In this document: in pieces, positions 17,210 to 62,554 of the stretch
Layout of the letters: each line of letters starts with the position of its first letter
Position numbering within the stretch: position 1 is the stretch's first letter
Source of the DNA: Chloroflexia bacterium SDU3-3
GTDB taxonomy: Bacteria; Chloroflexota; Chloroflexia; Chloroflexales; Roseiflexaceae
DNA length: 64,000 nucleotides
Direction of reading: 5' to 3'
Assembly: GCA_009268125.1 (NCBI GenBank)
Contig: WBOU01000002.1
Coordinates: 62,001 to 126,000, forward strand
Made by a program: the position numbers and the translations under genes
The notes under the pieces: model-generated
What the model was told of the DNA's origin: nothing
Database searches by the model: none
What the model saw: only the letters and a program-made list of their open reading frames with translations

Positions 17210-17221
17210 CGGTGCGGGGCG

Positions 17222-20751: not shown

Positions 20752-20788
20752 AAGCAGCAACCATCTTTGAGAAGAACGGTTGCTGCTT
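20752..20788 (-). terminator. Intrinsic terminator after tRNA-Thr
   Basis: An 11-bp stem (AAGCAGCAACC with its complement) followed on the minus strand by GCTTTTTTG. It begins 5 bp downstream of the tRNA 3' end. Confidence 0.9.
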
Positions 20789-20792
20789 CGTA

Positions 20793-20867: not shown

Positions 20868-20963
20868 GCAACGGGGATCATTTTAGCATAGAGATGCGTT
20901 TGCCGTCAACCGCTTTTTGGCGTACCGTATGGCCAAAAGTCACCCAGACGATAGGAAAAAACC

Positions 20964-21875
20964 ATGAACCAGACGCTGACCGCCATCTCCGGCATCCTGG
21001 TGGGCCACGCCCACGACGCCGAGGCCCGCACCGGCTGCACCGCCATCATCCTGCCGCCCGGCACCACCTGCGGCGTGGATGTGCGCGGCGGCGCGCCCGG
21101 CACCCGCGAGACCGACCTGCTTGCGCCGACCGCCGCCGTGCAGCATGTGGACGCGATCCTGCTCACCGGGGGCAGCGCGTTTGGCCTAGGCGCGGCGGAT
21201 GGCGTGATGCGCTGGCTGCGCGAGCGCGGGCGGGGCTTCCCCACCGGTGCGGGGCCGGTGCCGATCGTGCCCGCCGCCGTGCTGTTCGACCTAGGCGTGG
21301 GCGCGGCGGACCGCTGGCCCGACGCGGCCATGGGCTACGCCGCGTGCCAGGCCGCCAGCCCCAGCCCCGTGCCCGAGGGCGGTGTGGGCGCAGGCGCGGG
21401 CGCGCTGGTGGGCAAGCTGCGCGGGGCGGCCTGGGCCAGCCCTGGCGGCGTGGGCAGCGCCGCCGCGCGGCTGCCAAACGGCACCACGGTGGCCGCGCTA
21501 GCCGTTACCAACCCCTTCGGCGATGTCTACCGCCCCGACACCCAGGAGATCTTGGCCGGGGCCAGGGCCGACGACGGCAGCTTCATCAACACCGCGCGAG
21601 CCATCCGCAGCGCCGAGGCCATCCAGGCTTTTGGCAACACCACGCTGTGCATGGTGGCCACCGACGCCCCGCTGGACAAGGCGGGCTGCAAAAAGCTGGC
21701 CGAGATGGCGCAGGACGCGCTGCCTCGCACCATCCGCCCCATCCACACGCCCTTCGACGGCGACATCGTGTTCGCCGCCGCCACCGGCAGCGCGCCGGGG
21801 GTAAACCTGGCCGTGCTGGGCAGCGTGGCCGCCGACCTGCTGGCCGAGGCGATCGCCCGCAGCGTGGCGCGCTAG
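20964..21875 (+). CDS. P1 family (DmpA/BapA-type, S58) peptidase
   Basis: A 303-residue N-terminal-nucleophile aminopeptidase that cleaves itself into two subunits. Landmarks are ISGILVGHA, VDAILLTGGSAFGLGAADGVM, GAGAGALVGKL and VTNPFGDVY. The candidate autocleavage and nucleophile position is Asn-Thr in GNTTLCMVATDAPL (about residues 221-234), where related enzymes have Ser or Thr after Asn or Gly. No signal peptide, so cytoplasmic. The substrate (small peptides, D-amino-acid amides or beta-peptides) cannot be deduced. It converges with panC, overlapping by 4 bp. Confidence 0.88.
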   Translation: MNQTLTAISGILVGHAHDAEARTGCTAIILPPGTTCGVDVRGGAPGTRETDLLAPTAAVQHVDAILLTGGSAFGLGAADGVMRWLRERGRGFPTGAGPVPIVPAAVLFDLGVGAADRWPDAAMGYAACQAASPSPVPEGGVGAGAGALVGKLRGAAWASPGGVGSAAARLPNGTTVAALAVTNPFGDVYRPDTQEILAGARADDGSFINTARAIRSAEAIQAFGNTTLCMVATDAPLDKAGCKKLAEMAQDALPRTIRPIHTPFDGDIVFAAATGSAPGVNLAVLGSVAADLLAEAIARSVAR

Positions 21876-22705
21876 CCCAGCAGCGCGTTGTCGATCAGGC
21901 GCGTGGTGCCGAAGCGCACCGCCAGCGACACCAGCGCGCCGCGCTCGCCCACGTCCTCAAGCTCGCGCAGGCTCAGCGGGTCGGCTACGCTCACATAGTC
22001 GGTGGCGGCCAGCGGCTCGGCGGCCAGCGTGGCCTCGACCAGGCGGCGCAGCACGCCCGCCTGCCGCTCGCCCTGCCGGTAGGCCTCGGCGGCGGCCTGC
22101 AGCGCCCGCGAGAGCACTACGGCAGCGGCGCGCTGCTCGGGGGTGAGGTAGACATTGCGGCTAGACATGGCCAGGCCATCCGGCTCGCGCACGGTGGGGA
22201 TGATCACGATCTCGGTGGGGATGGCGAGGTCGCGGGCCATCTGGCGCACCACCACGCACTGCTGGGCGTCCTTCTGCCCAAAGTAGGCGGCCTGGGCCTG
22301 GGCGATGTTCAGCAGCTTGCACACCACCGTCGTCACCCCGCGAAAGTGGCCTGGGCGGCGCTGGCCCTCCAGCACCTCGGTCACGCCCTCGACGGCCACG
22401 TAGGTGCTGTAGCCGGGCGGGTAGATCTCGGCCACACCCGGGATGAGCACCAGATCGGCCCCGGCCTCGGCCAGCAGCCGCAGGTCGCGCTCGATATCGC
22501 GCGGGTAGCGGGCCAGATCCTCGCTGGGGCCAAACTGGGTGGGGTTCACAAAGATGCTCACCGCCGCCGCGCCCTGCTCGCGTTTGGCCTGGCGCACCAG
22601 GCTCAGGTGGCCCTCGTGTAGGAAGCCCATGGTGGGCACGAAGCCCATGCGCCCCAGCCCGGCCCGCGCCTCGCGGAACGCCGCGATCGTCTCGACAACC
22701 TCCAT
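21872..22705 (-). CDS. panC: Pantothenate synthetase
   Basis: Joins pantoate and beta-alanine using ATP, the last step to vitamin B5. The 277-residue protein shows PTMGFLHEGHLSLV (HIGH-type nucleotide motif, residues 25-38), FVNPTQFGP, the pantoate-binding VCKLLNIAQAQAAYFGQKD and SSRNVYL (with the KMSKS-equivalent serines). Length is standard. It starts 15 nt after panB ends and is the last gene of the DUF2520-panB-panC operon. GGAGG lies upstream of the ATG. Confidence 0.97.
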   Translation of the reverse strand: MEVVETIAAFREARAGLGRMGFVPTMGFLHEGHLSLVRQAKREQGAAAVSIFVNPTQFGPSEDLARYPRDIERDLRLLAEAGADLVLIPGVAEIYPPGYSTYVAVEGVTEVLEGQRRPGHFRGVTTVVCKLLNIAQAQAAYFGQKDAQQCVVVRQMARDLAIPTEIVIIPTVREPDGLAMSSRNVYLTPEQRAAAVVLSRALQAAAEAYRQGERQAGVLRRLVEATLAAEPLAATDYVSVADPLSLRELEDVGERGALVSLAVRFGTTRLIDNALLG

Positions 22706-22720
22706 GCCCCGCGCTCCTCC

Positions 22721-23554
22721 CTAGTCCTCTTGGCCCAGCGCCGCCCGTAGCTCGGCCTCATCCATCTTCGCGCTGTGCTCGGCGGTGGGGAACGCGCCAG
22801 CGCGCACATCCGCCGCGTAGCTGCCCAGCGCCTCGCTGATCGTGTCGGCCAGCTGGAGGTAGCGGCGGGCGTGGCGCGGCTGGTAGTCGGCGTACAGCCC
22901 TAGCAGATCGTGCCAGACCTGCACCTGCCCATCGCAGCCCGCCCCCGCGCCGATGCCGATGGTGGGGATGCGCAGCCGCGCCGTGATCGCCGCCGCCAGC
23001 GGGGCAGGCACCAGCTCCAGCACCACCGCGAAGGCCCCGGCCTCCTCAAGCGCCAGCGCGTCGGCCAGCAGCTGGCGGGCCGCGTCGGCGCTCTTGCCCT
23101 GCACGCGCCGCCCGATCACCAGCTCGGACTGGGGCGTGTAGCCCAGGTGGCCCATCACCGGCACGCCGAACGCGGTGAGCTGCCGCACGAAGGCAGTCAC
23201 GTGCGCGCCGCCCTCCAGCTTCACCGCCTGCACCCCGGCCTCCTGCATCAGGCGGCGGGCCGTCTCCATCGCCTGCGCCGCGCTGGCGTAGGAGAGAAAC
23301 GGCATGTCGCCTACCACCAGGGCGCGCTGGCTGCCGCGCGCCACCATCTTGGCGTGGTAGATGATCTCGTCCACCGTCACCGGCAGCGTGGTGGGCTGGC
23401 CCTGCACCACATTGCCCAGCGAGTCGCCCACCAAGATGAGCGGGATGCCCGCCCGCTCGACCATCTGGGCCGAGGTGTAGTCGTAGGCGGTGATCATCGG
23501 GATGCGCTCGCCGCGCTGCTTCATCGCCTGGATGTCGAGGATGCTCGTTCGCAT
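22721..23554 (-). CDS. panB: 3-methyl-2-oxobutanoate hydroxymethyltransferase
   Basis: Makes ketopantoate from 2-oxoisovalerate and methylene-tetrahydrofolate. The 277-residue protein has [37 protein letters not shown] (metal-binding Asp in GDS), VKLEGG (catalytic region), [14 protein letters not shown] and [13 protein letters not shown]. Ends normal. The gene sits 15 nt after the DUF2520 gene and 15 nt before panC, so all three should be co-transcribed. panD (beta-alanine supply) is not in the window. Confidence 0.97.
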
Positions 23555-45755: not shown

Positions 45756-48995
<3,240 letters not shown>

Positions 48996-48997
48996 CG

Positions 48998-49062
48998 TGT
49001 AATTTGTCACGCGTATTGGCGCTAGCGTCACGCGTATTGGCACTAGCGTCACGCGTATTGGC
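48998..49062 (+). repeat. Left transposon end: terminal repeat and three TnsB-type sites
   Basis: The 15-bp core GTCACGCGTATTGGC occurs exactly three times, at 49006-49020, 49027-49041 and 49048-49062, each 21 bp apart and in the same orientation. The terminal repeat TGTAATTT plus the first core forms the inverted repeat. This resembles the multiple 22-bp TnsB-binding sites of Tn7, here placed on one face of the helix. Confidence 0.93.
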
Positions 49063-49130
49063 AAAGTCGGGCTTTAGGCAAATACTTGGTATAGGAGAAA
49101 GTTGGAATCCTGAGGAGATAGTGAGGAAAA

Positions 49131-49167
49131 GTGAGTGCATCTTGAGTTCTAGTCAAGATGCACTCAC
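49131..49167 (-). terminator. Bidirectional-type hairpin between transposon end and cargo operon
   Basis: A perfect 15-bp stem (GTGAGTGCATCTTGA with its complement) and 7-nt loop. On the minus strand it is followed by CTTTTCC, so it can end the cargo operon whose last stop is at 49233. On the plus strand it is followed by GATTATTATATAT and could also blunt transcription arriving from gyrB. Confidence 0.75.
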
Positions 49168-49232
49168 GATTATTATATATGGGTTACAGCTAGATAAGTT
49201 AGTTGCTAGTGGCTATCTCAAATTTATAAGCC

Positions 49233-49754
49233 TTAATTCAACCAATAAATTATAATATCCAGTTTTTTTGCAGCTATAGATATCATATCACGATATGACT
49301 TATCTATGAAACGACCTTGTGTATGATCTGTGATAAAAATAATATTCCTATTTATATTTTTAATCTCATAAGCTCGTTCAAATGCGCTCAGCATGGATGT
49401 TCTCCAATCCTTTGCTGTTGATAATGTATAGAGTTGATTGTTATCACAGAGAAATGCTTGTGGTTTTGTAAATACTTGCGAGATATGATCACAAGATATA
49501 CTATGAAGTTGAAGAATTCTTTTTAAATCAGGTTTCTGTTTACTAGAATAAGATTTCATTATTGTATCTTTTAGATAAACTCGAACACGACTAGAATCCA
49601 TAATCTTTTCTAGCTTACCGCCAATATTGGGGTCAGAAGTCCATACTTCATAGTATTGCTTTCTCTGAGAAATTGTTAAGTGCAACCAGTCTATTTCATC
49701 TGCGTATTTGTAAAGAGCCTCGCGAATCTCGTGCTTTATGTCATCAACCTTCAT
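49233..49754 (-). CDS. Unrecognised protein, last gene of the cargo operon, 173 aa
   Basis: Begins MKVDDIKHEIREALYKYADE after AGGAGAGCTATA. The N-terminal half is helical; the C-terminal half alternates strands and helices (FTKPQAFLCDNNQLYTLS, RNIIFITDHTQGRF, YRDMISIAAKKLDIIIYWLN). The last segment reads like a nuclease- or Rossmann-type strand-helix-strand, but I cannot point to catalytic residues. It starts 25 nt after the helicase gene ends, so it is co-transcribed and presumably a subunit, nuclease or immunity factor of the same system. The AT-rich codon use matches the other cargo genes. Confidence 0.75.
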   Translation of the reverse strand: MKVDDIKHEIREALYKYADEIDWLHLTISQRKQYYEVWTSDPNIGGKLEKIMDSSRVRVYLKDTIMKSYSSKQKPDLKRILQLHSISCDHISQVFTKPQAFLCDNNQLYTLSTAKDWRTSMLSAFERAYEIKNINRNIIFITDHTQGRFIDKSYRDMISIAAKKLDIIIYWLN

Positions 49755-49779
49755 TATAGCTCTCCTAATTAGAGGAAGA

Positions 49780-51456
49780 TTACTCTGGGAAATTAAATTG
49801 GTTTGGGTCAAGTATTGGTAAGCGGACTAATTCATCTTCTTCGTAATCTTGAATATTTCCAAGATCCGCAATCCACTCATAGAAAAAATTGCCCATAGAA
49901 CGATCAATAAAATTTACAACTGCATGAGGTAAAGGTAACCTTTCAACAAAGTTATCATCTTGATTATCTAATAAATCAAATGCAGCATGAATCCTACGGA
50001 TATCAGCAGCAAAGTCCATTACTATAACATTATCCTTTGTTGGGCTTAGTCTTAAACCTCTACCAAGTTGTTGAACGAATATGCGTCGACTATGTGTTAC
50101 CCTTAGGAAAACCAGCATGTCAACATCTGGAACATCTACACCTTCATTAAAAATATCTACTACACATATAAATTGTATTTTGTTAGCTGCAAACTGAGAA
50201 AGTATTTTAAACCTTATAGTAGGTTCATCTGTATTGGTTAAGGATGCTGCCGTAAAACCAGATCTACGTAAGTCACTGGCAAAACTTTGTGCATGTATTT
50301 GAGAAGGACTAAATACAATACATCTTCGGCGATTATTTGAATCGTATACCTCTCTTATTTTATGTATTGCTTCATCATCACGTATTGGAATGATTAATTT
50401 TTTATTTAATTGACCTATTGTATATCCATATTGTGACTCAGACTTAACTAATTTCCAATCAATACTATCCAGATATATTCTATAATCTACATTGGAAAGG
50501 TATCCCTGGGCCAAACCTTCTTTAATACCCATGTAGAAAACCGGTTTTCCAAGGATTGATGTAATAGGTGTACCCTCTGCACGCCATGGAGTAGCTGTAA
50601 TACCAATGAGTTTAGATGGATTTAGTTGTTCTATAGTCTTTGAGTATCCAGGTGCACCTAAGTGATGCGCTTCATCTACTATTACTAAATCGAAGTACGG
50701 AAGGTTATTAGCATTAGAAAGAGATTGTACAGTAGCGAAAGTAATACCTTCAAAGAAGCTAGGTTTTTCTCCATCAGCAAGTCGATGGGTTGGGATAGTT
50801 TTGGGTAGGTGACGCCAAAAGCTTGTTAGTAATTGATTAACTAACGTAACAGTATGTGCAAGTACAAGAATTCTTCCTCGGTCAAGAAACCCATCAGATA
50901 GCAAATCTGCTACCAATTCTGCAACAATAACTGTTTTCCCCAATCCTGTTGCTAATACGATAAGCCCATGGCCACTTTCTAATACAGCAGAGCGTAAACG
51001 TTCGACAGCCTCAGCTTGATAATCTCGAAGAGTAGGCCGTGAGGGAACATATAGTGGAACTTTGTAACTTGCTTTCTTGAGGTCTTCGGGTCCTAAATGT
51101 TGGATCTGTAAACCAAATCCTTTTAACCTCTCTAATTCTTGAAAGAAAGCACGTGTTGGTTGTTGGGATGTTATAATACCTAATTTATCTGCATCATAGA
51201 TCATGCCTGCTTTACGTATTTCATTAATTGCTTGTTTCCCAGGAGGTGTTTTTGATGAGAACTTACACTGAAATACCCAGATAGCTCCTTTAGGGTCGGT
51301 TGCTAGTATATCAGCTCCACTATCTCCTGAGCGTCCTACTACTCGTGGATTCTTCCACCCTGCATGTAGTAGAAGACGGACAGGAGTTCTTTCAAATTCC
51401 TGCCATGGCCCATATCTGAGTAGTATATCATCAAATAATTCAGGCATATATTTCAT
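49780..51456 (-). CDS. SF2 helicase with N-terminal Mrr-like restriction nuclease domain
   Basis: A 558-residue fusion. Residues 1-130 form an Mrr-type PD-(D/E)xK nuclease: GDSGADILATDPKGAIWVFQCKF, with Asp49 and Gln63-x-Lys65 as the expected active site. Residues 140-500 are a superfamily 2 helicase/translocase: LRDYQAEAVERL (Q-type motif), LIVLATGLGKTVIVAEL (motif I), LVIVDEAHHLG (DEAH, motif II), GITATPWR (III), FICVVDIFNEGVDVPDVDM (V) and IFVQQLGRGLR (VI). This architecture matches translocating restriction effectors that cut DNA lacking protection. Its start overlaps the end of the GHKL ATPase gene by 17 nt, so both are translated from one mRNA. Confidence 0.9.
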   Translation of the reverse strand: MKYMPELFDDILLRYGPWQEFERTPVRLLLHAGWKNPRVVGRSGDSGADILATDPKGAIWVFQCKFSSKTPPGKQAINEIRKAGMIYDADKLGIITSQQPTRAFFQELERLKGFGLQIQHLGPEDLKKASYKVPLYVPSRPTLRDYQAEAVERLRSAVLESGHGLIVLATGLGKTVIVAELVADLLSDGFLDRGRILVLAHTVTLVNQLLTSFWRHLPKTIPTHRLADGEKPSFFEGITFATVQSLSNANNLPYFDLVIVDEAHHLGAPGYSKTIEQLNPSKLIGITATPWRAEGTPITSILGKPVFYMGIKEGLAQGYLSNVDYRIYLDSIDWKLVKSESQYGYTIGQLNKKLIIPIRDDEAIHKIREVYDSNNRRRCIVFSPSQIHAQSFASDLRRSGFTAASLTNTDEPTIRFKILSQFAANKIQFICVVDIFNEGVDVPDVDMLVFLRVTHSRRIFVQQLGRGLRLSPTKDNVIVMDFAADIRRIHAAFDLLDNQDDNFVERLPLPHAVVNFIDRSMGNFFYEWIADLGNIQDYEEDELVRLPILDPNQFNFPE

Positions 51457-53773
51457 CCAAACTAGACATATAGCTCTCTATACGGCCCATGCAAGCACGG
51501 ACAAAAACAAGATATGATCGAGATAATTCTAGAGGAGGAGTTAATGGATTAGCAAATTCACCAATTTTAGTTAGTGAAATCCATACATCTTGCATCAGTT
51601 GCTTCTGATAAATAGCTAATAAATCGGTATTGCCTCCAAGCTTTGATGGATTCCAATCACGCTTAAAACACCTATCATCAAAGAACAATGATGGTTCGCT
51701 TTGGAGCAAAGAAGCTATATGCCATACCTCAAGGAAATCAATCTTCTTAGCATTCGCTGCCCCTAAAGCATAAGACAGTTCGACTCTTTGTTGATCTTCT
51801 GGTGATAGCTTTCTTAGAAGGTTTTCCTGTGAATCTTCGCTAAGTTTGTTTGCGAGTTTATAGATTAGTTTCTTTCTAAGACTATCTATATCTGATCGTA
51901 TCTCGTTGGTACCTAAAGAATCTGCTGCTGAAAACTTGTTTCTTAAACTGACTAAGATTTCTCCATAATGAGTTCCATCACGAACACCCATTGCAGCTAC
52001 TTCTTCAGATGTTATATAATGAGCGAATTCTGCTAATATAGCATCTCTTAGTTGAAATGATGCAGAATTAAAAGAAGGGTGTTTTGGTTGAATTTCAACC
52101 TCGAATACTCCTTTTTCAGTTATTCTACTTTTCCAAGGTGTTCCATGAAATGAATCAAGTGGTTTATTTATATCATAGACTTCAATGACATATACTCGGC
52201 TAGATAAACCTATTCCACTAACTGTAGAACTTAACTGAGGTATTATTATTCTGTTAGTTTTTGTTTCATTGATAACATTAAGCTTTCCAGGTGGTATTTC
52301 TTTGATATTGGTTGGTTGATTAGTTGATGTGGTAATACTGTTAATTTCTGATGATATTCCCGTATCAAGACCAATATCAGTCTCGATTGAGTCGGACTCT
52401 TTGAATTCAATATTGTACTCGTCTGTGCTGGTAGGTGTTGATTCCTCACCTTCTAATTCTATCTTCCATTTATTGTTGTCTAAGTATTCAGTTATGCCTT
52501 TCCTATAAGAATCTGCCCACAAGCGAGCTTTATCATTGTCTTGAATAAAAAGTATATCCCTCCATGTCTGGTTTGATTTTGAGAGAGGTGAATTTCTGCG
52601 AAATACTCTGAATAGCAGCCCTAGAGGTGAATTATTGGCTTCAGGGAAACCGTGTTTAGGTCTATTAATAAGAGGTTCATTATTGCGAATCGCATTCAGT
52701 AATTGTTTCCAACTAGAATGCTCTCTTTCGAATCTATGTTTGGTATAAAAAACATATCCATGATCTAGATGGATTTCACCGACAATTCTTCCTCTATTAC
52801 GTGGGTCATCTATAGGGTACTCTAAAACGTCATCCCATTCGAAGAGGCTCTTACATCCTATTTCTATTTTTCTCCCATTTCTGATAAGATCTATACCGAA
52901 TTCTTTGTTGTCAGCGTACCTCTGAATTCCAATCCAACCATAGATTCTTTCAGGGACTTCGATTACGTCATCTCTGGATATATTGTCTAAAGAATCATAT
53001 AGCTTACCATCTATTTTAGATAAGTATTTAATGCCAAAGGTCTGATTTATTTCTTGAACTGGGCGCACTAATCCTTCATTTTTCCGATATACGTCCCAAT
53101 CTGCAGGCCATATACAGTGCTGCCAAGCTTCTATTTTTTTGTTATTCATATAGAGAGAAAAGCCAATAGGAAGAGGGGTTTGGGAACGCAGCATTGTGCT
53201 GTATACCTTAGATAAATACTCACTTATATTATTTCGTACCCATTGGGTATTTAGGAAAGAACCTTTCCATTCAGAACGTAGTCGAGAAACTTCGATTTCT
53301 GTACCACTAGTATTTGGGTCTGCTTTTATCCTTGTGAGGGGCTTTAGTAAATATGACCCACCAGTAGCCATTTTAGGTAAATCTATGTCTAAACCTACCC
53401 ACTCTTCATCACCAGCACGCGTAGTCCAAATTTTTGTTAATGAGCCTAGTCGCGCCGTAGCTATATTGAATCCTATACCATAAAGGCCAAGATTGCCAAA
53501 GCGATCATTAGAACTCCAGCCAGCTTTAACAGCAAGTTCCAGATCTTTGATTGACATTCCAGGCCCATTATCTTTGACAACAACTGTCTCTTGCCCTAAA
53601 GCAATATTAACTCTAGGCTTTTCTATAGGATCTCCGGCACGCATTCTCTTAAGAAAACCATCTATAGAATTATCAATAAGCTCGGCTAGACATTGCCAAG
53701 GACGGAGTTCAATTTCACCTAAGACCGTCAGGATGGTAGGATGGGGCGTTACATCAATCAGCTCGGAATTCAT
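51440..53773 (-). CDS. MORC-like GHKL (Bergerat-fold) ATPase
   Basis: A 777-residue protein. The N-terminal 200 residues form a Bergerat-fold ATPase: CLAELIDNSIDGFL (N box; Glu31 and Asn35), VVVKDNGPGMS (G1) and LGLYGIGFNIATARLG (G2). The 500-residue remainder has a transducer-like S5 region followed by a long segment I cannot assign, ending in helices. MORC/MutL-type ATPases of this kind have been described in bacterial restriction-modification-like clusters with cytosine methylases and SF2 helicases, as here. Expected role: an ATP-driven clamp or conformational switch on DNA. The gene lies 10 nt after the methyltransferase gene. Confidence 0.88.
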   Translation of the reverse strand: MNSELIDVTPHPTILTVLGEIELRPWQCLAELIDNSIDGFLKRMRAGDPIEKPRVNIALGQETVVVKDNGPGMSIKDLELAVKAGWSSNDRFGNLGLYGIGFNIATARLGSLTKIWTTRAGDEEWVGLDIDLPKMATGGSYLLKPLTRIKADPNTSGTEIEVSRLRSEWKGSFLNTQWVRNNISEYLSKVYSTMLRSQTPLPIGFSLYMNNKKIEAWQHCIWPADWDVYRKNEGLVRPVQEINQTFGIKYLSKIDGKLYDSLDNISRDDVIEVPERIYGWIGIQRYADNKEFGIDLIRNGRKIEIGCKSLFEWDDVLEYPIDDPRNRGRIVGEIHLDHGYVFYTKHRFEREHSSWKQLLNAIRNNEPLINRPKHGFPEANNSPLGLLFRVFRRNSPLSKSNQTWRDILFIQDNDKARLWADSYRKGITEYLDNNKWKIELEGEESTPTSTDEYNIEFKESDSIETDIGLDTGISSEINSITTSTNQPTNIKEIPPGKLNVINETKTNRIIIPQLSSTVSGIGLSSRVYVIEVYDINKPLDSFHGTPWKSRITEKGVFEVEIQPKHPSFNSASFQLRDAILAEFAHYITSEEVAAMGVRDGTHYGEILVSLRNKFSAADSLGTNEIRSDIDSLRKKLIYKLANKLSEDSQENLLRKLSPEDQQRVELSYALGAANAKKIDFLEVWHIASLLQSEPSLFFDDRCFKRDWNPSKLGGNTDLLAIYQKQLMQDVWISLTKIGEFANPLTPPLELSRSYLVFVRACMGRIESYMSSLDEIYA

Positions 53774-53783
53774 AGTATCTATC

Positions 53784-55055
53784 CTAGTATGATTTCAAAG
53801 ATAGCTTAAGCCGATTATAGATTTCCAAAGCGAAAAGTCTACCTACCTCAACAGGAACAGCATTACCAAGTTGTTTGATACATGCACCCCAAGGACCACA
53901 GAACTCCCAAGTGTCGGGGAACGTCTGTAATCGTGCTGCCTCGCGTGTAGTGAAATAACGAACAGAACCATCCTTATCGATGCGTAGCATATTTTCACCA
54001 CCAGGCGTACCATGAGTACCGGCCTTAAGTGCCTTAGATGGGTAATCCCAAAAACTACCAATGTGTGATTTGTAAGTTCTTGCGCCTGGATGCTGTATAT
54101 GATTAAGCAAAGATGGCTCTTCCCCTCGAGGACTGGGTTCTGGCATATTGTTTAACGCATCACGTACAGTTCTCCAAGGTTGAATCCCTTCTTCTTTTAA
54201 GAAATTCGCTTGGTGGCTAGAAACCAATAGCCTTTCCCGTATACCTAAATGATCTTGTGAAGGCTGAATGTTATGCCGTTCCCAATATACTTTGCTAACC
54301 CACTGATCATATAATAAAGCTTCCTTGCTATGAGTTGCGGTAAGAGTGAATGGCTTGATTCCAAGATCTTTACGGAATGCTGATATAATAACTCTTTCTC
54401 TGCGCTGTGGTACTCCAAAATCAGCGGTATCAATAAGCTGATGAGTCACAATATATTGTTCTTCATCCGCGAAGTCAGATTCTCTCAAACAACATAATTC
54501 TTTATAATGATCATACCAAGTATGATTATCTTTCATAGTATGACTTGGAAATTGAAGTCGTTTTAGAATGTAATCCAGATACTCTCTAAAACACTGACGT
54601 ACTAATCCTTTAACATTTTCAATAAGGACAGCTTTAGGCCTCGTTTTAGCAACTACATCAATAAATGTAGGAAACATATTTCTATGATCATTTGGCCCAA
54701 GCTTACGACCACCTGTTGAAAATGGTTGACAAGGAGGGCCACCTGAGAGAAGATCAATCCTGTTGGTGAATTCACTATAGTCTATAGATAAAGCATCTTT
54801 TTCTAGGATATGTTCTGGACTAATACCAAGAGCACTCTTACTATTTTTCTTTAGTGTCTGTACTGCAAACTCATTCAATTCGATTAGTGCTAGAGGCTTG
54901 AAACCTGAAGAGTGAATACCGAGAGCTAATCCTCCAGTACCAGCGAATAATTCCAAGCAGGTTAGGTTTGTATGACTATCCGATCTATACAGCGAATCAT
55001 TAGAATTAGCTGATAGGATAGGATTATGAGCTTGTAATATAACAGGTGTGGTCAT
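53784..55055 (-). CDS. DNA (cytosine-5-)-methyltransferase
   Basis: A 423-residue C5 methylase with the usual motif order: I CLELFAGTGGLALGIHSSGF (residues 33-52), IV LLSGGPPCQPFSTGG (catalytic Cys109), VI VLIENVKGL, VIII FGVPQRRERVIISAF, and X IKQLGNAVPVEVG close to the end. The target-recognition domain lies between VIII and X (about residues 230-350). It is the first gene of the cargo operon and presumably marks self DNA for the downstream helicase-nuclease. Sequence specificity is not predictable here. AT-rich codon use contrasts with the host. Confidence 0.94.
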   Translation of the reverse strand: MTTPVILQAHNPILSANSNDSLYRSDSHTNLTCLELFAGTGGLALGIHSSGFKPLALIELNEFAVQTLKKNSKSALGISPEHILEKDALSIDYSEFTNRIDLLSGGPPCQPFSTGGRKLGPNDHRNMFPTFIDVVAKTRPKAVLIENVKGLVRQCFREYLDYILKRLQFPSHTMKDNHTWYDHYKELCCLRESDFADEEQYIVTHQLIDTADFGVPQRRERVIISAFRKDLGIKPFTLTATHSKEALLYDQWVSKVYWERHNIQPSQDHLGIRERLLVSSHQANFLKEEGIQPWRTVRDALNNMPEPSPRGEEPSLLNHIQHPGARTYKSHIGSFWDYPSKALKAGTHGTPGGENMLRIDKDGSVRYFTTREAARLQTFPDTWEFCGPWGACIKQLGNAVPVEVGRLFALEIYNRLKLSLKSY

Positions 55056-55109
55056 ACATCCTCAATCATGCTTAAGATTCACTCTGAATCTATATCGGTT
55101 GTAGAAACT

Positions 55110-55137
55110 ATTATCTTACTAAATCTACACTGTCCAA
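55110..55137 (-). promoter_or_regulatory. Candidate promoter of the defence-like operon
   Basis: On the minus strand TTGGAC (55132-55137) and GATAAT (55110-55115) are 16 bp apart, about 55 bp before the methyltransferase ATG. The 271-bp gap between the tniQ stop (55328) and 55055 shows nothing else. Confidence 0.45.
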
Positions 55138-55327
55138 CAGCTCTATGGGTGTCAGAAGAGCTTAACTTTGAACAAGCTTAATGCATATAGATTTTGCATT
55201 GTGCTATTTTTCACAATATCTAATTTGGCATCGCCCTTGCCGTATTATAACGTATAGAGGCCACAGCGTCTATTATCTAAGATTACCAAATTCTACAGGT
55301 TTCGCTGCAACCTAGTAACTTCTTCAT

Positions 55328-57505
55328 CTACAGGTGAGTGGAAAATCGTTGTAGCCTTACCACATCTTCTCTTCCAAACCACCGCTGTTTTCCATCCATG
55401 TCGTTCAGAGGGATGAGTTTACCCTGTTTCACCCATCGGTCAAGAGTGGCTTTGCTTACGCCGAGGAATTTTAGGGCCTCACCAAAGGTTAGTCGCTGAT
55501 ATCGCCACTCAGCAAGCATGGTTTTGTCAAAGCGATAGATGTGACTACCATCGATACTCGGCCCCATGAGTGCGGTGAGGCGACCAGCTCGCGCCCAATT
55601 CTGCACTGTTATCGGTGTTATTCTGAGTATCTTTGCTGCGATGTCAGTAGTGATATAACGCTTCTGGAAAGATATAACATCACGCTCATCATAGACTTGG
55701 CGGCGTTTATCTTTAGGTTTCGTCGGATCTTGTACTTGTATTGGCATCAGCAGTCTAGTGCTAACCAGATGTTTGAGGGTTGTTGGTTTGCATTCCAGAC
55801 GCTCACAGACCATGTTTGCCGATAGCATTACGGGCTGCTCTGCTTGTACGAACTGGCTCAGCGTGGTCAAGACTGCAAGTGATTCCCACCAAAGGACGTG
55901 TAGCCCTATCGTATTTTCTGCTCTATAGGTTGGGAGTGTCCCTTCTTGGACAAGAGCCAAAAGGTGCGGGAGTCGTATTCCTATTGTAGAGAGCGTGCGT
56001 TGAACTCGGAGTAGATCCCATATCTCGTTGGTGAAACCGGATGGAAGTGTTCGGATGGGAACATTTTCGAGCAACGCTGTAAGGGAATCCATTATAGCTT
56101 TTGTTGAGAAGCACCATGTCGATGTACCGTCTACAAGAGGCCCACTCGTAGCCTGAAGGAGGCCAGCAGCAACCAGAGCAACGATCTGTTCTTTACTTAC
56201 GCCATAGGAGTTTGCTGCCTCAGTCAGCGAAAGCTGGGTCTTGCGAGCAAGTCCGAGTTGTTTCACGCTTTCTGCCTCGATGAGTCTCCATGGACGCTTA
56301 TGGTTCTGCGCTGGCGGACGTGTGGTTCGGAGATCGCCGGACGCTATGTGTGTTTTGAGGTTCTGTTCGCTGATTCCAAGGCGGCGGGCTGCTTCTCGTT
56401 GAGAAAGGAGTTCAGGGAACTGTCTATCAGGCAATCGTTGCGCGATACGATAATAGCGTAGCCAAGGATAGACAATATCGGTATCTGTGCGCACCTGCAT
56501 GTATGCCATCCAACTTTGGTGCAGCCAATCCCATTCACCACCACGAAATTTAGTCTGCAACATCCTAGGAAAACGTGCATAACCATCGTCTTCAGTGGCA
56601 GCGATGCGATCCAATGTCATATGCCATGTTTCAGGCCAGTATTGAAGCAACTGCCACATTGCCGTAAGCATGTTATGAATAAGGTTCACGTTTGCTTGTT
56701 GAAGCGTTATGTATAAACCTTCTCTAACAAGAGGTATGAGAAGGGTTGAATCGTTGAAGATGGGATTATTAGGATCTCGCGAAAGAAGTAATTGTGCTCC
56801 ACGCCAGAGGAAGGTGAAGAGTGTGCAGGTTGCCATATTATGCAGCGGATTATTTGCATCAATAGAGAGCGATGCGGGCGAATATGGTTTAGAACCACAT
56901 TCAATGGCACTCCATAGCAGATTCGTAAGTTGTAGGCTTGCTGGGTGATTACTGATCGATGTTGTTGGAAAGGAATGAACCGGTTTTCCGCAACGAGCGC
57001 AAGTACCGGATGAAATTGTAATACAGAGTGAATTCTGACACGATGGGCATGTGTCCACGAGCATTACTTGATGTTTCTGGCAACTCGTAATAAGGCGAAG
57101 CTGCCAGGGGGCAAAGAATGTTTGATCGGTACTGTAACAGAGAGGACAAACCTTATGGACGCTGCTTGAATGGATCCACCGTCCAGTATCGCTCCATTTC
57201 CACATAGGGATATTCGAATCTCCATATTCATGCACCAGTGTAGCCAGTTCTTCTTCCGGGTAGAATGCTGGTACGAAGCGATGGATGGTACATGCTGCCA
57301 AGCGTTCTGGAGATATCCCCGTAAGCTCAGCCAAGATACGATAATGGGTGGCAAGACGAAGCGCATTGATATTGTGTGGGATGGGTTTTGGCAAGAACCC
57401 ATGATACCAGTAAGGCTCCTCGTAGTGGTTTGCCCGTCTCAGACGTTCTAACAGCCCTACCATGCTTTCATAGGGAAGGGGAGTAAGTCGATTGATGAGG
57501 TGCAT
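55328..57505 (-). CDS. TniQ/TnsD-family target selector with about six tandem HTH modules
   Basis: A 725-residue target-site protein. Residues 1-200 form the TniQ domain with zinc ligands C120xxC123, C142xxH145, C153xxC156 and C169xxC172. From residue 366 onward comes a string of HTH units of the MerR/excisionase type, each about 50 residues: 366 (SQREAARRLGISEQNLKTHI), 425 (SLTEAANSYGVSKEQIVALV), 492 (weaker), 559 (SANMVCERLECKPTTLKHLV), 617 (TTDIAAKILRITPITVQNWA) and 671 (FGEALKFLGVSKATLDRWVK). Several are followed by a GR/GDL wing and an acidic helix. Tn7 TnsD has about 508 residues. This protein probably recognises the gyrB stop-codon region or its downstream flank. Confidence 0.9.
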   Translation of the reverse strand: MHLINRLTPLPYESMVGLLERLRRANHYEEPYWYHGFLPKPIPHNINALRLATHYRILAELTGISPERLAACTIHRFVPAFYPEEELATLVHEYGDSNIPMWKWSDTGRWIHSSSVHKVCPLCYSTDQTFFAPWQLRLITSCQKHQVMLVDTCPSCQNSLCITISSGTCARCGKPVHSFPTTSISNHPASLQLTNLLWSAIECGSKPYSPASLSIDANNPLHNMATCTLFTFLWRGAQLLLSRDPNNPIFNDSTLLIPLVREGLYITLQQANVNLIHNMLTAMWQLLQYWPETWHMTLDRIAATEDDGYARFPRMLQTKFRGGEWDWLHQSWMAYMQVRTDTDIVYPWLRYYRIAQRLPDRQFPELLSQREAARRLGISEQNLKTHIASGDLRTTRPPAQNHKRPWRLIEAESVKQLGLARKTQLSLTEAANSYGVSKEQIVALVAAGLLQATSGPLVDGTSTWCFSTKAIMDSLTALLENVPIRTLPSGFTNEIWDLLRVQRTLSTIGIRLPHLLALVQEGTLPTYRAENTIGLHVLWWESLAVLTTLSQFVQAEQPVMLSANMVCERLECKPTTLKHLVSTRLLMPIQVQDPTKPKDKRRQVYDERDVISFQKRYITTDIAAKILRITPITVQNWARAGRLTALMGPSIDGSHIYRFDKTMLAEWRYQRLTFGEALKFLGVSKATLDRWVKQGKLIPLNDMDGKQRWFGREDVVRLQRFSTHL

Positions 57506-57518
57506 ACTCTATCCTATG

Positions 57519-58553
57519 CTACATAATGCCTTGGCTCGTTTTACGCTTTTCCCGAGCTTTGCTACGCTGATTTGTCCCTCCCACCGATGTTGGGATGTTT
57601 GGTTTTGTCGGTGACATTGGTGGTGGGCCAATAAATGGATTGGCAATTTTGCGGCGCTTGCCGGCTAGCCGATCTGCAAAGGCTTGGGCAAGAAGTATGT
57701 CATCAAGATGCTCTCGTCCTTGAGTGAGCGCCAGATAGGAAGCGCGGCGGATAAGTGCTATGAGGTAGCTAATTATTCCCTCTGAAGCTACGAAACACCT
57801 CCAGGCTCGCTCACGGTTAGCCAGCATAGAGGGTTCGTTGAGCGGGAGCAGCTTCTCAAGCTGGTCGAGAAACGTACGAAATTCTATAATGGTGCTAGGT
57901 ATTGCTTCATCCCACGTAAAGGATTCTAATTCTTCGGGGTCGCCAAAGAGGCGTGCAAGCTGTGGGTTGGCTGCAACAACCTTTTCAGCCTCACCCTTTA
58001 ACCCAATTAGTATGCAGGATATATGGGTGTCTTTGATGAGGTTTTTAAGCCAGTCGCTAACGGCTTCTTGAATCTTATGATTGTCTCGATTAAAGAAATG
58101 CTGTAATTCGTCCAGAATTACAAGTTGGACATCGCATTCCTTAATGAAGCTGATAAGACGAGCTGTCATCCCTCCCGTTGTACCACTCAGTGCGCGTGGG
58201 TCTCCGAGTGTCTGGAGGAGTGCTGCTGCAAGATTTTTAATGGTTGCGGGTGAAGGAATCGTTGTGCGTAACACTGGGCAATGGACTCCTGTTTCCGTTA
58301 TCGTCATGGGGTAGTTTTGCGCATAGGAGTTTGCGAGGGTCGTTTTACCTGCCCCTGTTTGTCCAATGAGAAGCATGCAAGGAGGCTCCGCTGCAATAGG
58401 CTGCATCTCGTGACTTTCACGGATCTTCTTCATGATTTCTGTCCAGCGAGGATAGATGACACGTATTTGCTCCACGTAGACGATCCGCTGCGGTCCTGGA
58501 AGCTTACAGATGTCTGCATGTGATAGGTATGGAGACGAGTTGGATGTGTCCAT
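57519..58553 (-). CDS. tnsC: TnsC-family AAA+ transposition regulator
   Basis: ATPase that connects the target complex to the transposase. The 344-residue protein has CMLLIGQTGAGKTTLANSYAQ (Walker A, about residues 60-80), VQLVILDELQHFFNRDN (Walker B), a sensor-1 region SCILIGLKGEAEKVV, and a conserved FLDQLEKLLPL segment. Length and motifs fit TniB/TnsC. ATG 58553 follows AAAGGAACGTTC; a longer frame to 58604 would overlap tnsB. The tniQ gene starts 13 nt after its stop. Confidence 0.93.
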   Translation of the reverse strand: MDTSNSSPYLSHADICKLPGPQRIVYVEQIRVIYPRWTEIMKKIRESHEMQPIAAEPPCMLLIGQTGAGKTTLANSYAQNYPMTITETGVHCPVLRTTIPSPATIKNLAAALLQTLGDPRALSGTTGGMTARLISFIKECDVQLVILDELQHFFNRDNHKIQEAVSDWLKNLIKDTHISCILIGLKGEAEKVVAANPQLARLFGDPEELESFTWDEAIPSTIIEFRTFLDQLEKLLPLNEPSMLANRERAWRCFVASEGIISYLIALIRRASYLALTQGREHLDDILLAQAFADRLAGKRRKIANPFIGPPPMSPTKPNIPTSVGGTNQRSKAREKRKTSQGIM

Positions 58554-58564
58554 GAACGTTCCTT

Positions 58565-60742
58565 TTATCGCTTTGATGATGGCAAGTGATAATCGCCGCC
58601 CCAACCGGACGTGTCCAAAGGGTCTTCATTCGAAGGTGGTGGCAATGGTTTCTGCTCAGTTTCTTGGGTACCCTGAGGTACAGACGCGGGGGATGTTTCC
58701 TTGGATTGTTTGGCAGTATATGCTTTTGGCTGCTGCGGTGAATCTGTGGGAGGTGGCAATGATGGTTTGGGCGAGATAGCCTGTGGATCCGCGGTCGTCG
58801 TAGCTTCTGATACTGTGAGTGCATCAGAAGTAATATTGGCACCAATATCGAGGAATCGTGCGGCAGACTTGCGGCCCTTAATCTTACGAGTGAGCGAGAA
58901 TTCGTGTGCGACAATCTGCTGGATCTGCTGTTTTGCCGCTGCGAGCGCCTCAATATTGACGTCACGCTTCTGCTGAAGGACAAAACGGCGAATGACGCGG
59001 TGTTTCCAGAGGGAGAGACCTTGGGTGTAAGCTTGATCAATCGCTGGTATGCGAAGCCAGCGCTGCTCGTTTGGGGAATAGACAGCGATTGCACGTAAAT
59101 CGGCGGGATCGTATTTGATAGCGACCGTTGTGCCACTGCCTAGCACTGATCGCATCTGGGCGATGTCGGGGCTTTGGTATACCAGCGATTCAAAGTCAAT
59201 CCCATGGCGCTGGAGTGTACGTGTCTCGTTCGGCTGAAGAAGTAATCGTACTTCTTCGGCATTGTTATGCAGAGAAGGGATGAACCCATTTGCTACACTT
59301 TCTGCCCACCTCTTTGCGGGGATGCCACCAATGCCATCGTGCCAACGTTGCGCATAGATATCAAGCAGAAAGATATGCAGGATTTTCAATAATGTGTTGA
59401 GGGGAAGACAGGCATGCGCAAAGACGTTGTAGTCGCCGCGATCGATCATATTTGAGAAAGTCGTTCCAGGGAGGGTATGAATAAGGCCCGTGTTGTTGGT
59501 GCGGAAAAATCGTTCAATGCTGCCCTTGAACCAGGGTGTATGGACAGGCATGCGTTCCAGAATAATGCCAAGCTGTGCGCAGGCATGTTCCAAATCCTGT
59601 CCAATGAATTCTTTGCCGTTGTCGATAACGAGCAGTTCAGGCAGTCCATAAGCTAGCCAGGAGTTCTTTGTTTCGTAGCATTGGCTTGTATCTGCCTTCG
59701 GGAGAATCCCATGCTGGAGGCAACTGCTGATGGTACGGTAGCTGGGCGGCTCAAACCCGAGGTAGAAGCCAAATGGGAACCCAGTATATACATCCAGTGC
59801 GTAGGTGAGTGTTGGCCGTCCGATGGGAAGGCGATCCTCCTCGTCAACAATAAATACATCCAGAAGGGTATGATCAATTTCGACGCGTTCAAGAATGCGG
59901 GTAGGCTGTGGTCCTTGTGCCACCGGAGCATCGGTTTGTAGCTCTTTCCGACTGGCCCGCCGACGGAGAACGGTTTGGATACCAGTAGCTTGAATGCGTC
60001 GATACAGGGTTGAGGGACTCGGTGGTACTAACTGCTCAGAAGGTGATCGAAGTGCATTTTCATCACGAAGACGGTTGATGATCATAAAATATACATCCTG
60101 GGCAGTACGGTACTGAGGTTTGGCTACACACTCGGCTAGGATTCCCTGCACGATTGCTTCGAGTTCAGCTTTGAGATTAGTTTTCCCTTTCCGACCATGC
60201 CCTGGTGTATTTGGCACGAGTGCGCGTATGTCAAAGCCACTTTCCAAGAATGCGCTGAGCCAACGTTGAATACTGCGGTTGCTTGTAGCCTGCCCAATCG
60301 CAGCACGGGTATGCCGGTTATTGCCAGTTGGTACAGACTCAGTCGTTGGTGATACGGTATTTGTTGGCTGTAGTGATGCGGCATAGTCTGCAATAGCCGC
60401 AGTGGTGCATTCTTTGGGCGGCATGCGTAGCAATGGTAAGAGTAATTGATATCTCCTCCAGGCTTCATCCCGTTGTTTGGCTGGGAGCATATGAAGGTCA
60501 TCAAAGGTGTAGCTCGTAGCCAGCGGGCGTTCGGATGTGTTGCTCACATTGTGTCCCCGAACCTCAAATTGAATCTCTCCTCGTCCCCAGGCTTCAACAA
60601 GTTCGGCATAAGTGATGATGGCTTGGCCACCAAAACTCTGATTTTCGACAGCTAGCCGACCTTCGGTCAAGATTTGACGTACGATATACACATTCGACTG
60701 ATAGAGATAGCGTGATCCTTGGGTAAGGCGCAATCGAGCCAT
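58565..60742 (-). CDS. tnsB: TnsB-family DDE transposase
   Basis: Retroviral-integrase-fold transposase that binds the end repeats and joins 3' ends to the target. In the 725-residue protein HTH domains occupy residues 1-250; the catalytic core has D290 (VEIDHTLLD), D374 (LVIDNGKEF) and E410 (KGSIERFF), a DD35E spacing. A beta-barrel domain follows, then a C-terminal disordered tail rich in Pro/Ser/Thr (residues about 660-725), probably contacting TnsC. ATG 60742 follows GGAGG. tnsA ends 18 nt upstream and tnsC starts 11 nt downstream, giving one tight operon. Confidence 0.95.
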   Translation of the reverse strand: MARLRLTQGSRYLYQSNVYIVRQILTEGRLAVENQSFGGQAIITYAELVEAWGRGEIQFEVRGHNVSNTSERPLATSYTFDDLHMLPAKQRDEAWRRYQLLLPLLRMPPKECTTAAIADYAASLQPTNTVSPTTESVPTGNNRHTRAAIGQATSNRSIQRWLSAFLESGFDIRALVPNTPGHGRKGKTNLKAELEAIVQGILAECVAKPQYRTAQDVYFMIINRLRDENALRSPSEQLVPPSPSTLYRRIQATGIQTVLRRRASRKELQTDAPVAQGPQPTRILERVEIDHTLLDVFIVDEEDRLPIGRPTLTYALDVYTGFPFGFYLGFEPPSYRTISSCLQHGILPKADTSQCYETKNSWLAYGLPELLVIDNGKEFIGQDLEHACAQLGIILERMPVHTPWFKGSIERFFRTNNTGLIHTLPGTTFSNMIDRGDYNVFAHACLPLNTLLKILHIFLLDIYAQRWHDGIGGIPAKRWAESVANGFIPSLHNNAEEVRLLLQPNETRTLQRHGIDFESLVYQSPDIAQMRSVLGSGTTVAIKYDPADLRAIAVYSPNEQRWLRIPAIDQAYTQGLSLWKHRVIRRFVLQQKRDVNIEALAAAKQQIQQIVAHEFSLTRKIKGRKSAARFLDIGANITSDALTVSEATTTADPQAISPKPSLPPPTDSPQQPKAYTAKQSKETSPASVPQGTQETEQKPLPPPSNEDPLDTSGWGGDYHLPSSKR

Positions 60743-60760
60743 GGCTTCCTCCAATGTCAG

Positions 60761-61390
60761 CTAACAGGGTAACCGAATCAAACTGGTGGTTGTGAGTGGC
60801 TGATGCATATTAGTACGGAGGATATTTCGGAATAAAAGCGCATAGAGATGGGGCGCATGGATCATCGATGAGGTGCCTGCTAAGGTCGAAGCGAGAATGC
60901 CAAATGGTAGTCCATCAGGATTGTGTTCTAACAGTGCGCGGCAACGGGTTGGGACATCGATGGGTATTGGTGTTCGTGCATAGCGCCAGAGAAGCTTGAG
61001 ATTAGCAAGTTGATGTCCCGAACGCAAGTCAATATCAGTTATCACGACAAACATGTGATCATTAGCAGACGCCCATGTTTGTCCTATTCTGATCTGGCGT
61101 TGAGCCACATCATCAGAAACAAGTGCGGCAGGTTTACACTCAACAAGTTCTTTTCCTGTTGCACGGATGACCTGAAAGTCTGGGGTGTAGGTGTGGGATG
61201 TGCCATCCAGATCGGTATGGGAAATAGTGAATGGTTGTGGGTAATATGCATGAACGGTGGGGTCGTATTCGAGAAAGAAGAGGAGGTCGCGTTCAATCGT
61301 GGACTCGTAGGCGACATTTGGCGGCATCTTGAGGCTGGGGAATGAGCCAATAATATTGCCGCCACGATTGCTGGGGACTCGTACAGGCAT
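60761..61390 (-). CDS. tnsA: TnsA-family endonuclease subunit
   Basis: Cuts the 5' ends of the element so that it moves by cut-and-paste. The 209-residue protein has the restriction-type active site Glu33 (YESTIERDLLFFLEYDP), Asp71 (YTPDFQV) and Glu84-Cys-Lys86 (ELVECKPA). In Tn7 the last motif is Gln-x-Lys. A C-terminal winged-helix-like region follows. ATG 61390 has GAGGAGGAATTTT upstream and lies 100 nt after a near-consensus promoter; a longer frame to 61525 would start inside that promoter and is rejected. Confidence 0.92.
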   Translation of the reverse strand: MPVRVPSNRGGNIIGSFPSLKMPPNVAYESTIERDLLFFLEYDPTVHAYYPQPFTISHTDLDGTSHTYTPDFQVIRATGKELVECKPAALVSDDVAQRQIRIGQTWASANDHMFVVITDIDLRSGHQLANLKLLWRYARTPIPIDVPTRCRALLEHNPDGLPFGILASTLAGTSSMIHAPHLYALLFRNILRTNMHQPLTTTSLIRLPC

Positions 61391-61496
61391 AAAATTCCTC
61401 CTCGCTTCGTATAGCCGAGGCAGGCTCTCATTCCAAGAGGGAAGCGACTTGTTGGGGTAGTGTTCTGCCTGAAGACACGCTGGCCTTCTCAAGGCT

Positions 61497-61525
61497 ACTA
61501 TAGAACGTACGTTTTGTTTTGTCAA
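61497..61525 (-). promoter_or_regulatory. Promoter of the tns operon with a palindrome in its spacer
   Basis: On the minus strand TTGACA (61520-61525), 17 bp, TATAGT (61497-61502). The spacer contains the palindrome AACGTACGTT (61504-61513), a possible operator for a transposon-encoded regulator such as TniQ or TnsB. The remainder of the 337-bp gap up to 61728 is AT-rich without a gene. Confidence 0.75.
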
Positions 61526-61652
61526 TCGGTGATTTCTCAGGATGAGAGAGGAGGGCTGCTAGAGGCTGTCGATTCTCTTAGCAACATAATATGGGAAGAA
61601 GTTTTCTTGCCAATCTGAATGCTTTAGCTAATGGGTAACTTGCTTTTCGGTA

Positions 61653-61680
61653 TTGCAAAAGCAGTTGTGTGTTATATCAT
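61653..61680 (+). promoter_or_regulatory. Promoter candidate for the 189-aa cargo gene
   Basis: TTGCAA (61653-61658), 16 bp, TATCAT (61675-61680) on the plus strand, about 49 bp before the ATG at 61729. Confidence 0.5.
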
Positions 61681-61728
61681 TATGATACGTGGTATTCGGT
61701 CATCGGTGTTGACTAACAAGAGGGAACT

Positions 61729-62298
61729 ATGAAACAAGAAAGCCTATCTATTATTCATTTATTTCTCGAAAAGGTTGAGGAAATGCTAAGCGAGGAGTTT
61801 ATAAAGTCCTTGGAAGAGAATTCTACGATATCAGTTTCTATCAATAGCAAGAAAGGCTTAACGGAAAGAATAGCTCCAAGCTCTACGTCTATAAAAGCGG
61901 TTGCCACAAACTATCGAATATTTACTTCGGCTGAGAATATATCTATTAGAGGGTTAGGTAAGCTATTAGATGATCCTGATATTTCTCTAGAATGGAAGAA
62001 AACATATCAAGATGTGCGTGATAAATTAAACCAATTTCTTGATGAAGAAACTGGGTTTCATATTGGTGATGGAGGAACTCCTTTGACAAGGCGATATATA
62101 GTTGATATTTTCATAAACGGTTGGATATTCCATGTTAAAGATAGTGATAAAACAAAAGTTTATAGGGAATGGAAAGAAAGTCCATTGATATTTTATGGTT
62201 TAGAACAGGTATTTATTACCGTTATTTATCAGCTGTCTGGTGCTGTAGGTATTATCGCAGGCCGATGCCGTGAGGAGATTATGAGATCTGCGGAATAA
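61729..62298 (+). CDS. Unrecognised AT-rich cargo protein at the right transposon end, 189 aa
   Basis: Starts MKQESLSIIHLFLEKVEEML after AAGAGGGA. Largely helical with charged segments; a central part, FLDEETGFHIGDGGTPLTRRYIVDIFINGW, may be a small folded core, and YHVKD-like strand WIFHVKDSD follows. A hydrophobic stretch (FYGLEQVFITVIYQLSGAVGIIAG) near the end could be a buried helix or membrane contact. It is the only plus-strand gene in the element, transcribed away from tnsA. No family or function recognised; it could be a separate defence, accessory or regulatory gene. Confidence 0.7.
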   Translation: MKQESLSIIHLFLEKVEEMLSEEFIKSLEENSTISVSINSKKGLTERIAPSSTSIKAVATNYRIFTSAENISIRGLGKLLDDPDISLEWKKTYQDVRDKLNQFLDEETGFHIGDGGTPLTRRYIVDIFINGWIFHVKDSDKTKVYREWKESPLIFYGLEQVFITVIYQLSGAVGIIAGRCREEIMRSAE

Positions 62299-62342
62299 GG
62301 TTTTGATTACTATCAACTAAAAAATCTCAGAGTAAACTTTTT

Positions 62343-62461
62343 GCCAATACGCTCGGCAATAAGTTTACTTTTTGCCAATACGTCTGAAAATAGGTTGCCA
62401 ATACGTCTGACATAGAAGCCTTTCCTGGGCTTTTTTCTGCCAATACGTGTGACAATTTACA
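62343..62461 (-). repeat. Right transposon end: terminal repeat and four TnsB-type sites
   Basis: GCCAATACG begins four sites in inverse orientation to the left end: 62343-62357, 62374-62388, 62397-62411 and 62439-62453. The cores diverge after GCCAATACG (CTCGGC, TCTGAA, TCTGAC, TGTGAC). Spacings are 31, 23 and 42 bp, unlike the even 21 bp of the left end. The outermost site plus AATTTACA forms the 23-bp terminal repeat. Confidence 0.9.
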
Positions 62462-62511: not shown

Positions 62512-62554
62512 AAAAGCGGGTTTCTCTGAGATTATCTCGGAGGAACCCGCTTTT
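62512..62554 (+). terminator. Intrinsic terminator, probably that of gyrB before the insertion
   Basis: AAAAGCGGGTT pairs with AACCCGCTTTT, with inner pairing CTGAGAT/ATCTCGG, followed by TATATC. In the reconstructed empty site it would lie about 50 bp after the gyrB stop codon. No other gene ends between the transposon and this hairpin. Confidence 0.8.

Follow-up and report, generated by a model that had tools for sequence, protein, structure and literature searches.

We identified a complete Tn7-like transposon in the 64,000-nucleotide stretch of Chloroflexia bacterium SDU3-3 DNA analysed here (the window), and its TniQ protein is very probably a TnsD-type target selector that homes the element to the 3' end of gyrB. 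The element and its ends, the six wHTH units of the TniQ protein, the location of all four other Chloroflexota elements and of one in Azospirillum argentinense Az39, the spacing of a conserved TTCATC block and the conservation of units 5 and 6 together give strong support to gyrB homing.

A Tn7-like element behind gyrB

The element spans about 13.4 kb (49006-62453) and combines a tnsA-tnsB-tnsC-tniQ operon with restriction- or defence-like cargo. The operon runs on the minus strand from 61525 down to 55328 and includes tnsA, encoding an endonuclease (60761-61525; Tn7_TnsA-like_N, E 1.3e-9), tnsB, encoding a DDE transposase (58565-60754; Mu-transpos_C, E 1e-10, and rve), tnsC, encoding a TniB-like AAA+ ATPase (57519-58604; TniB, E 2.8e-29), and tniQ as the last gene (55328-57505). 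A repeat search found three copies of GTCACGCGTATTGGC spaced 21 bp apart on the plus strand at the gyrB-proximal end (49006-49064) and four inverted copies on the minus strand at the distal end (62338-62453). Both the grouping of tnsA, tnsB (DDE) and tnsC (AAA+) and the presence of several inverted transposase-site repeats at the ends identify the element as Tn7-like. The flank sequence contains AATTT on either side (49001-49005 and 62454-62458), a probable target-site duplication, and these flanks imply the terminus GTCAC, one base inside the TGT...ACA of relatives. Flanking duplications of 5 bp were also found in genome G027 (AATAG), genome G266 (ACCAA) and Az39 (CAGGT); none was seen at the elements of G028 and G118.

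The cargo genes, assigned from domain matches and all on the minus strand, encode a C5 cytosine DNA methyltransferase (53784-55055), a GHKL ATPase (51440-53773) and a protein with an Mrr-type nuclease domain and an SF2 helicase (49780-51456). This region (49780-55055) resembles a restriction or defence cassette, and PADLOC matched no system to it as a whole. Defence-type cargo is the rule in Tn7-like elements (PMC8649781) and is also present in relatives, with SspC and SspD in G027 and SspC in G384. A 189-aa ORF to which no family was assigned lies between tnsA and the distal end (61729-62298). No CRISPR repeats, cas-like ORF or known guide RNA family were found within the element, which thus lacks the CRISPR array and cas genes that define a CRISPR-associated transposon (CAST).

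The element starts 10 bp past the stop of gyrB, a plus-strand gene with an in-frame intein (45756-48995) that ends at 48995. The intein sits in the GDSAGG-SAKQGR motif and includes an HNH-like stretch, HCHHIDFDKRNNNPTNIRRM. An inverted repeat at 62512-62554 forms a hairpin that is probably the gyrB terminator, pushed away by the insertion. Alignment of six carriers delimits a putative recognition region at the 3' end of gyrB (48936-48995, plus strand), with a conserved CGC..TTCATCCAGACNCACGC, about 35-60 bp away from the insertion. The TTCATC block is conserved and lies 52-59 bp off the insertion in all six carriers, a distance comparable with the binding site of Tn7 TnsD, which covers 36 bp from +23 to +58 (PMC2918618). 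Between hosts, gyrB varies by synonymous changes.

A TniQ protein with six wHTH units

The tniQ ORF (minus strand, ATG start) encodes a protein of 725 aa. An earlier note, made from the DNA alone, had proposed a zinc-bearing TniQ domain, and this was confirmed by Pfam (TniQ, residues 6-149, E 1.6e-13) and by a zinc ribbon at residues 119-180 (56966-57151, minus strand) that matches solved TniQ/TnsD chains in sequence. Its eight ligands (C120, C123, C142, H145, C153, C156, C169 and C172) show no change across six homologues. The TniQ domain with a CCCH zinc ribbon, the HTH DNA-binding region on the C-terminal side, supported by sequence and AlphaFold2, and site-specific insertion near one conserved gene in six elements are all features of the TniQ/TnsD family.

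The C-terminal part of the protein consists of six tandem MerR/BldC/Xis-type wHTH units, of which five are clear and the third is diverged. Pfam reports four stretches of HTH_17 (whole-protein E 5e-26), and NCBIfam reports three of "excise" (excisionase-type DNA-binding). All units are encoded on the minus strand. HTH_17 matches were obtained for unit 1 (residues 364-417; 56255-56416; E 7e-5) and unit 2 (residues 421-479; 56069-56245; E 0.008), both also seen with AlphaFold2, and for unit 5 (residues 614-667; 55505-55666; E 8e-8) and unit 6 (residues 668-723; 55337-55504; E 1.6e-7). Unit 3 (residues 493-555; 55841-56029) is recognised by AlphaFold2 and by an HTH_17 match in the G118 copy (E 0.015); cut out of the window protein, it gave no Pfam match. 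Unit 4 (residues 560-613; 55667-55828), cut out in the same way, gave a weak MerR_2 match only; its homologues match HTH_17 (E 5e-4 in G027 and 1.5e-7 in G384A), and its top structural match is BldC (Z 8.1). The summed similarity between units was 447, whereas 300 residue shuffles gave 297 +/- 15 and at most 348. In every one of six homologues, a profile derived from the units recovered five strong units, with a very weak piece of unit 3 in one of them; this result shows self-consistency, as the profile was built from those same sequences.

AlphaFold2, run with six homologues, gave a pLDDT of 63.8 for the whole protein and a mean of 81.6 for residues 360-725. It places units at about residues 366-421, 427-479, 495-555, 560-616, 617-669 and 671-723, each with the fold (strand)-helix-helix-wing-helix. 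With a pTM of 0.45, the single units are predicted with confidence and their relative placement is uncertain. Compared singly, the units resemble BldC (Z 8.1), two Xis proteins (Pukovnik, 7.9; GIsul2, 7.7) and the C-terminal wHTH from a CAST I-F3 TniQ (7.6), values that are middling on the tool's own scale, where a Z under 8 counts as such. The likeness to BldC agrees with a sequence profile match (6amk BldC, E 0.001). Foldseek matches across the whole array exceeded 20 A in rmsd and are meaningless. BldC-family members are small single-wHTH proteins that oligomerise on direct repeats, a description that does not fit units lying within one 725-aa TniQ protein.

Pfam/HTH_17, the between-unit similarity and AlphaFold2 therefore agree with the earlier note that repeated HTH modules follow the TniQ domain, and the predicted structure of residues 360-725 shows six such units rather than a single globular domain. 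The proposed number of about six holds, with unit 3 degenerate. The units measure about 50-60 residues rather than the suggested 50 or so, and the supposed E/D-rich acidic helix, the last of each unit, is only mildly acidic and is the normal third helix of HTH_17/MerR proteins.

Related elements in Chloroflexota and other bacteria

The TniQ family is rare, as judged from a 400-genome sample of the phylum and class-wide searches. The source genome has one copy of the element's TniQ, and only four other genomes yielded full-length homologues, namely G027, G028 (Candidatus Oscillochloris fontis), G118 and G384 (Ktedonobacter sp. SOSP1-85, with two TniQ copies). The elements of these four Chloroflexota genomes are divergent, with the same TniQ architecture at 25-47% identity, and in 4/4 genomes gyrB adjoins the element, the end of which lies 9-14 bp past the stop. 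The carriers are single species of different families and classes whose sampled relatives lack the element, and the gyrB genes of most sampled relatives have no such element end behind them. Cargo and end repeats differ between the Chloroflexota elements. A single-protein scan of genome contigs found no relative, nor did a scan of viral contigs. Nearly every true relative that we found homes to gyrB.

The alphaproteobacterial strain A. argentinense Az39 carries a TniQ that is 23-25% identical and has a five-unit array, within an element about 7 bp behind gyrB. This brings to six the elements lying 7-14 bp behind gyrB (the window, four in Chloroflexota and Az39). The Az39 element (L103:1043-19085; NZ_CP007794.1, record about 5042-23085) is located on a 1.9-Mb Azospirillum replicon, and its tnsA end points toward gyrB, opposite to the Chloroflexota elements. 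The gyrB layout of Az39 matches that of six other Azospirillum replicons until a few bases past the stop, where the sequences part. The empty site is found in NZ_CP032322.1; in the sister strain MTCC4035 the flanks are joined (L102 positions 3042 and 3047 correspond to L103 positions 1042 and 19085), which gives an insertion of 18 kb in Az39. A GC-rich hairpin (L080 5080-5118) considered as the Az39 gyrB terminator was rejected, since the empty-site comparison puts it inside the element. Three AACTCTATGATTGAGAA repeats spaced 21-22 bp apart lie right behind the gyrB site (L103:19114-19175 and L104:976-1037); no inverted copies were found nearby, and they are possibly the end or remnant of another element.

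Arrays without unit 6, colinear with units 1-5 (or 2-5), are present in Az39, in the Pseudomonas putida plasmid p716811-VIM and in G266. The plasmid protein has five units and is not near gyrB; the ends of its element were searched for and not found. The G266 TniQ (L017:6677-8989) has a diverged wHTH array ending in an XRE-type HTH, and its element, flanked by the ACCAA duplication, is intergenic and away from gyrB. We considered unit 6 as a marker of gyrB homing, as it is missing from these two proteins with other locations, and dropped this idea because the Az39 array, although at gyrB, has no unit 6. Unit 6 is thus not required for the gyrB location, and the similar arrays in G266 and the P. 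putida plasmid indicate that an array alone does not mean gyrB.

Which units may read DNA

Conservation is concentrated toward the C-terminus, as expected if the conserved units carry most of the specificity. Identity between distant pairs is 46% in unit 5 and 55% in unit 6, the most conserved, compared with 18-34% in other parts of the protein. The second TniQ of G384 has lost this conservation: it departs at 20 positions from a residue shared by the five proteins from elements at the gyrB site, and 14 of these positions fall in units 5-6.

We compared the same five proteins at the positions that contact DNA in BldC (window-protein numbering). In unit 6, R690 and W691 correspond to the base-contacting Arg30 and the DNA-kinking Trp31 of BldC and are invariant in all homologues. 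Unit 5 retains W637 and Q635, and residue 636 (BldC position 30) is N/G/S/R/K. The contact arginine is largely kept in unit 4 (residue 579, H/R/R/R/R). In units 1-3 the equivalent position is variable and often Ala or Leu: T/A/K/R/L in unit 1 (385), A/A/A/D/G in unit 2 (443) and A/L/L/A/A in unit 3 (517). In most homologues units 2 and 3 bear few positive charges, and they may be structural; unit 1 has positive charge in every homologue.

BldC/Xis-type wHTHs bind one per 9-10 bp or so (PMC5859096), that is, one per DNA turn (PMC5859096, PMC7498355), and by analogy a string of six BldC-like units could span some 50-60 bp. The earlier note had suggested that the array touches tens of base pairs of DNA, which is plausible given the spacing of BldC/Xis-type wHTHs and the 36 bp of Tn7 TnsD (PMC2918618), and its view of the protein as a DNA reader holds in outline, as a TnsD homing factor. 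Its further proposal, that each module reads its own word in a programmable-like manner, fared worse: homologues with the same target vary at the contact positions of units 1, 2, 3 and 5, and the compared sequences do not support a strict one-unit-one-word code.

Target selection and alternative explanations

Based on these data, we propose that the N-terminal TniQ/zinc-ribbon core would dock to TnsC, as family knowledge suggests, while the covalent string of five clear and one diverged wHTH units would lie along the last 60 bp or so of gyrB, with binding and register put forward as a model. The target codons (PRKRFIQTHA) would stay conserved because the GyrB protein is essential. TnsC would then position TnsAB at a fixed distance downstream of the bound site, so that the element would land about 10 bp past the stop and gyrB would stay intact. 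Units 4-6 probably give most of the sequence-specific contacts, and units 1-3 are probably spacers or make weak, non-specific or DNA-bending contacts. In a sub-version of this explanation, rather than a true alternative, only units 4-6 read DNA and the degenerate units 1-3 serve as a structural arm or as an interface for TnsC or DNA bending. This is quite possible, although we would not call it probable: conservation is strongest in units 5-6, and unit 6 and, for the most part, unit 4 keep the contact arginine, but Az39 is still behind gyrB without unit 6, and no homologue lacks positive charge in unit 1.

A true modular reader, in which six units each recognise their own short word in order along gyrB with exchangeable specificity, seems unlikely to us. 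Six units of the same fold do stand in tandem in the AlphaFold2 model, their number varies between proteins (five in Azospirillum and P. putida, another terminal HTH in G266), and BldC/Xis wHTHs occupy one DNA turn each (PMC5859096, PMC7498355). However, the divergence of units 1, 2, 3 and 5 at base-contact positions among same-target homologues and the scarcity of positive charge in units 2 and 3 argue against such a reader, as does the partly indirect readout of BldC and RdfS (PMC11963761); the synonymous differences in gyrB between hosts leave it a small probability. It is likewise unlikely that the array is a ready-made covalent BldC/Xis-like filament, in which successive wHTHs would each occupy roughly one turn of DNA at the gyrB end and the gain, loss or replacement of units (five units, six units, a terminal XRE domain) would retarget the transposon. 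It is very unlikely that the array acts as an autoregulator or in an excisionase-like manner while TnsC alone, an RNA guide or a host protein chooses the target. The units do resemble Xis and MerR regulators, and CAST elements use MerR-type regulators (CvkR, PMC9938897), but this element has no other target-selector gene, searches of it for CRISPR repeats, cas genes and known RNA families came up empty, and fusion of TniQ to DNA-binding domains is the known homing design (PMC11406308).

Some observations count against gyrB homing, namely the reversed orientation in Az39, the arrays located elsewhere in G266 and P. putida, and the low pTM. In addition, the Chloroflexota elements share one TniQ ancestry, and their adjacency to gyrB could come through common descent. 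Nevertheless, it is extremely improbable that the proximity is accidental or reflects one old insertion passed on vertically, given single-species carriers in different families and classes whose sampled relatives are element-free, differing cargo and end repeats, the exact distance kept from gyrB, and the case of a host from an unrelated phylum whose sister strain has the empty site. The probability that chance alone produced the adjacency is negligible. Homing by a TnsD-type selector accounts best for the data.

Relation to known systems

TnsDs with several HTH domains have been described (Faure et al. 2023, PMC10293859). Like TnsD of Tn7 and of CAST I-B/I-D (PMC10293859, PMC2918618), the window protein has a TniQ core, a zinc ribbon, tnsABC partners and a long C-terminal region predicted as several HTH domains, and it likewise homes to a conserved essential gene, with the insertion point displaced to beyond the 3' end. 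In contrast to those proteins, it has MerR/BldC-type wHTHs (HTH_17) in a recognisable tandem as its C-terminal part, its target is gyrB rather than glmS or tRNA, and its length is 725 aa rather than 507. Some I-F3 CASTs (Tn7017-like) have TnsDs that home to parE (PMC11406308), a paralogue of gyrB, and likewise insert under protein guidance beside the gene of a type II topoisomerase B subunit. The likeness is one of target and design; here the gene is gyrB, not parE, and the element is without CRISPR-Cas. Each unit shares its fold with BldC, Xis and RdfS, which assemble head to tail on DNA (PMC5859096, PMC11963761), and would likely occupy 9-10 bp, possibly with DNA bending. Those proteins act as separate identical monomers, whereas here one polypeptide combines six different units with a TniQ core.

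Three open-access papers (PMC10293859, PMC11406308 and the 2021 cargo survey PMC8649781) make no mention of a gyrB attachment site; the parE site is in PMC11406308. The novelty lies chiefly in gyrB as the site and in a wHTH tandem that is recognisable as such, and an earlier description outside the open-access literature is possible. With these elements gyrB, a near-universal essential gene, joins the Tn7 homing sites, and it does so in two phyla. The TniQ arrays, each of five or six related wHTH units, form a natural set in which some share a site and others lie elsewhere, which makes the division of labour among TnsD C-terminal HTH regions at an attachment site directly testable. The finding by itself yields no programmable reader; if the filament reading were true, the array would be a natural modular DNA reader.

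The second TniQ of the Ktedonobacter SOSP1-85 element (L015:15200-17422) has a six-unit array with diverged units 5-6 and perhaps represents a second target pathway. In G032 (L065) and G035 (L064), TGTAGGAT... followed by short repeats lies just past the stop of gyrB, where the contigs end or nearly so, and these loci are possibly further elements at the gyrB site.
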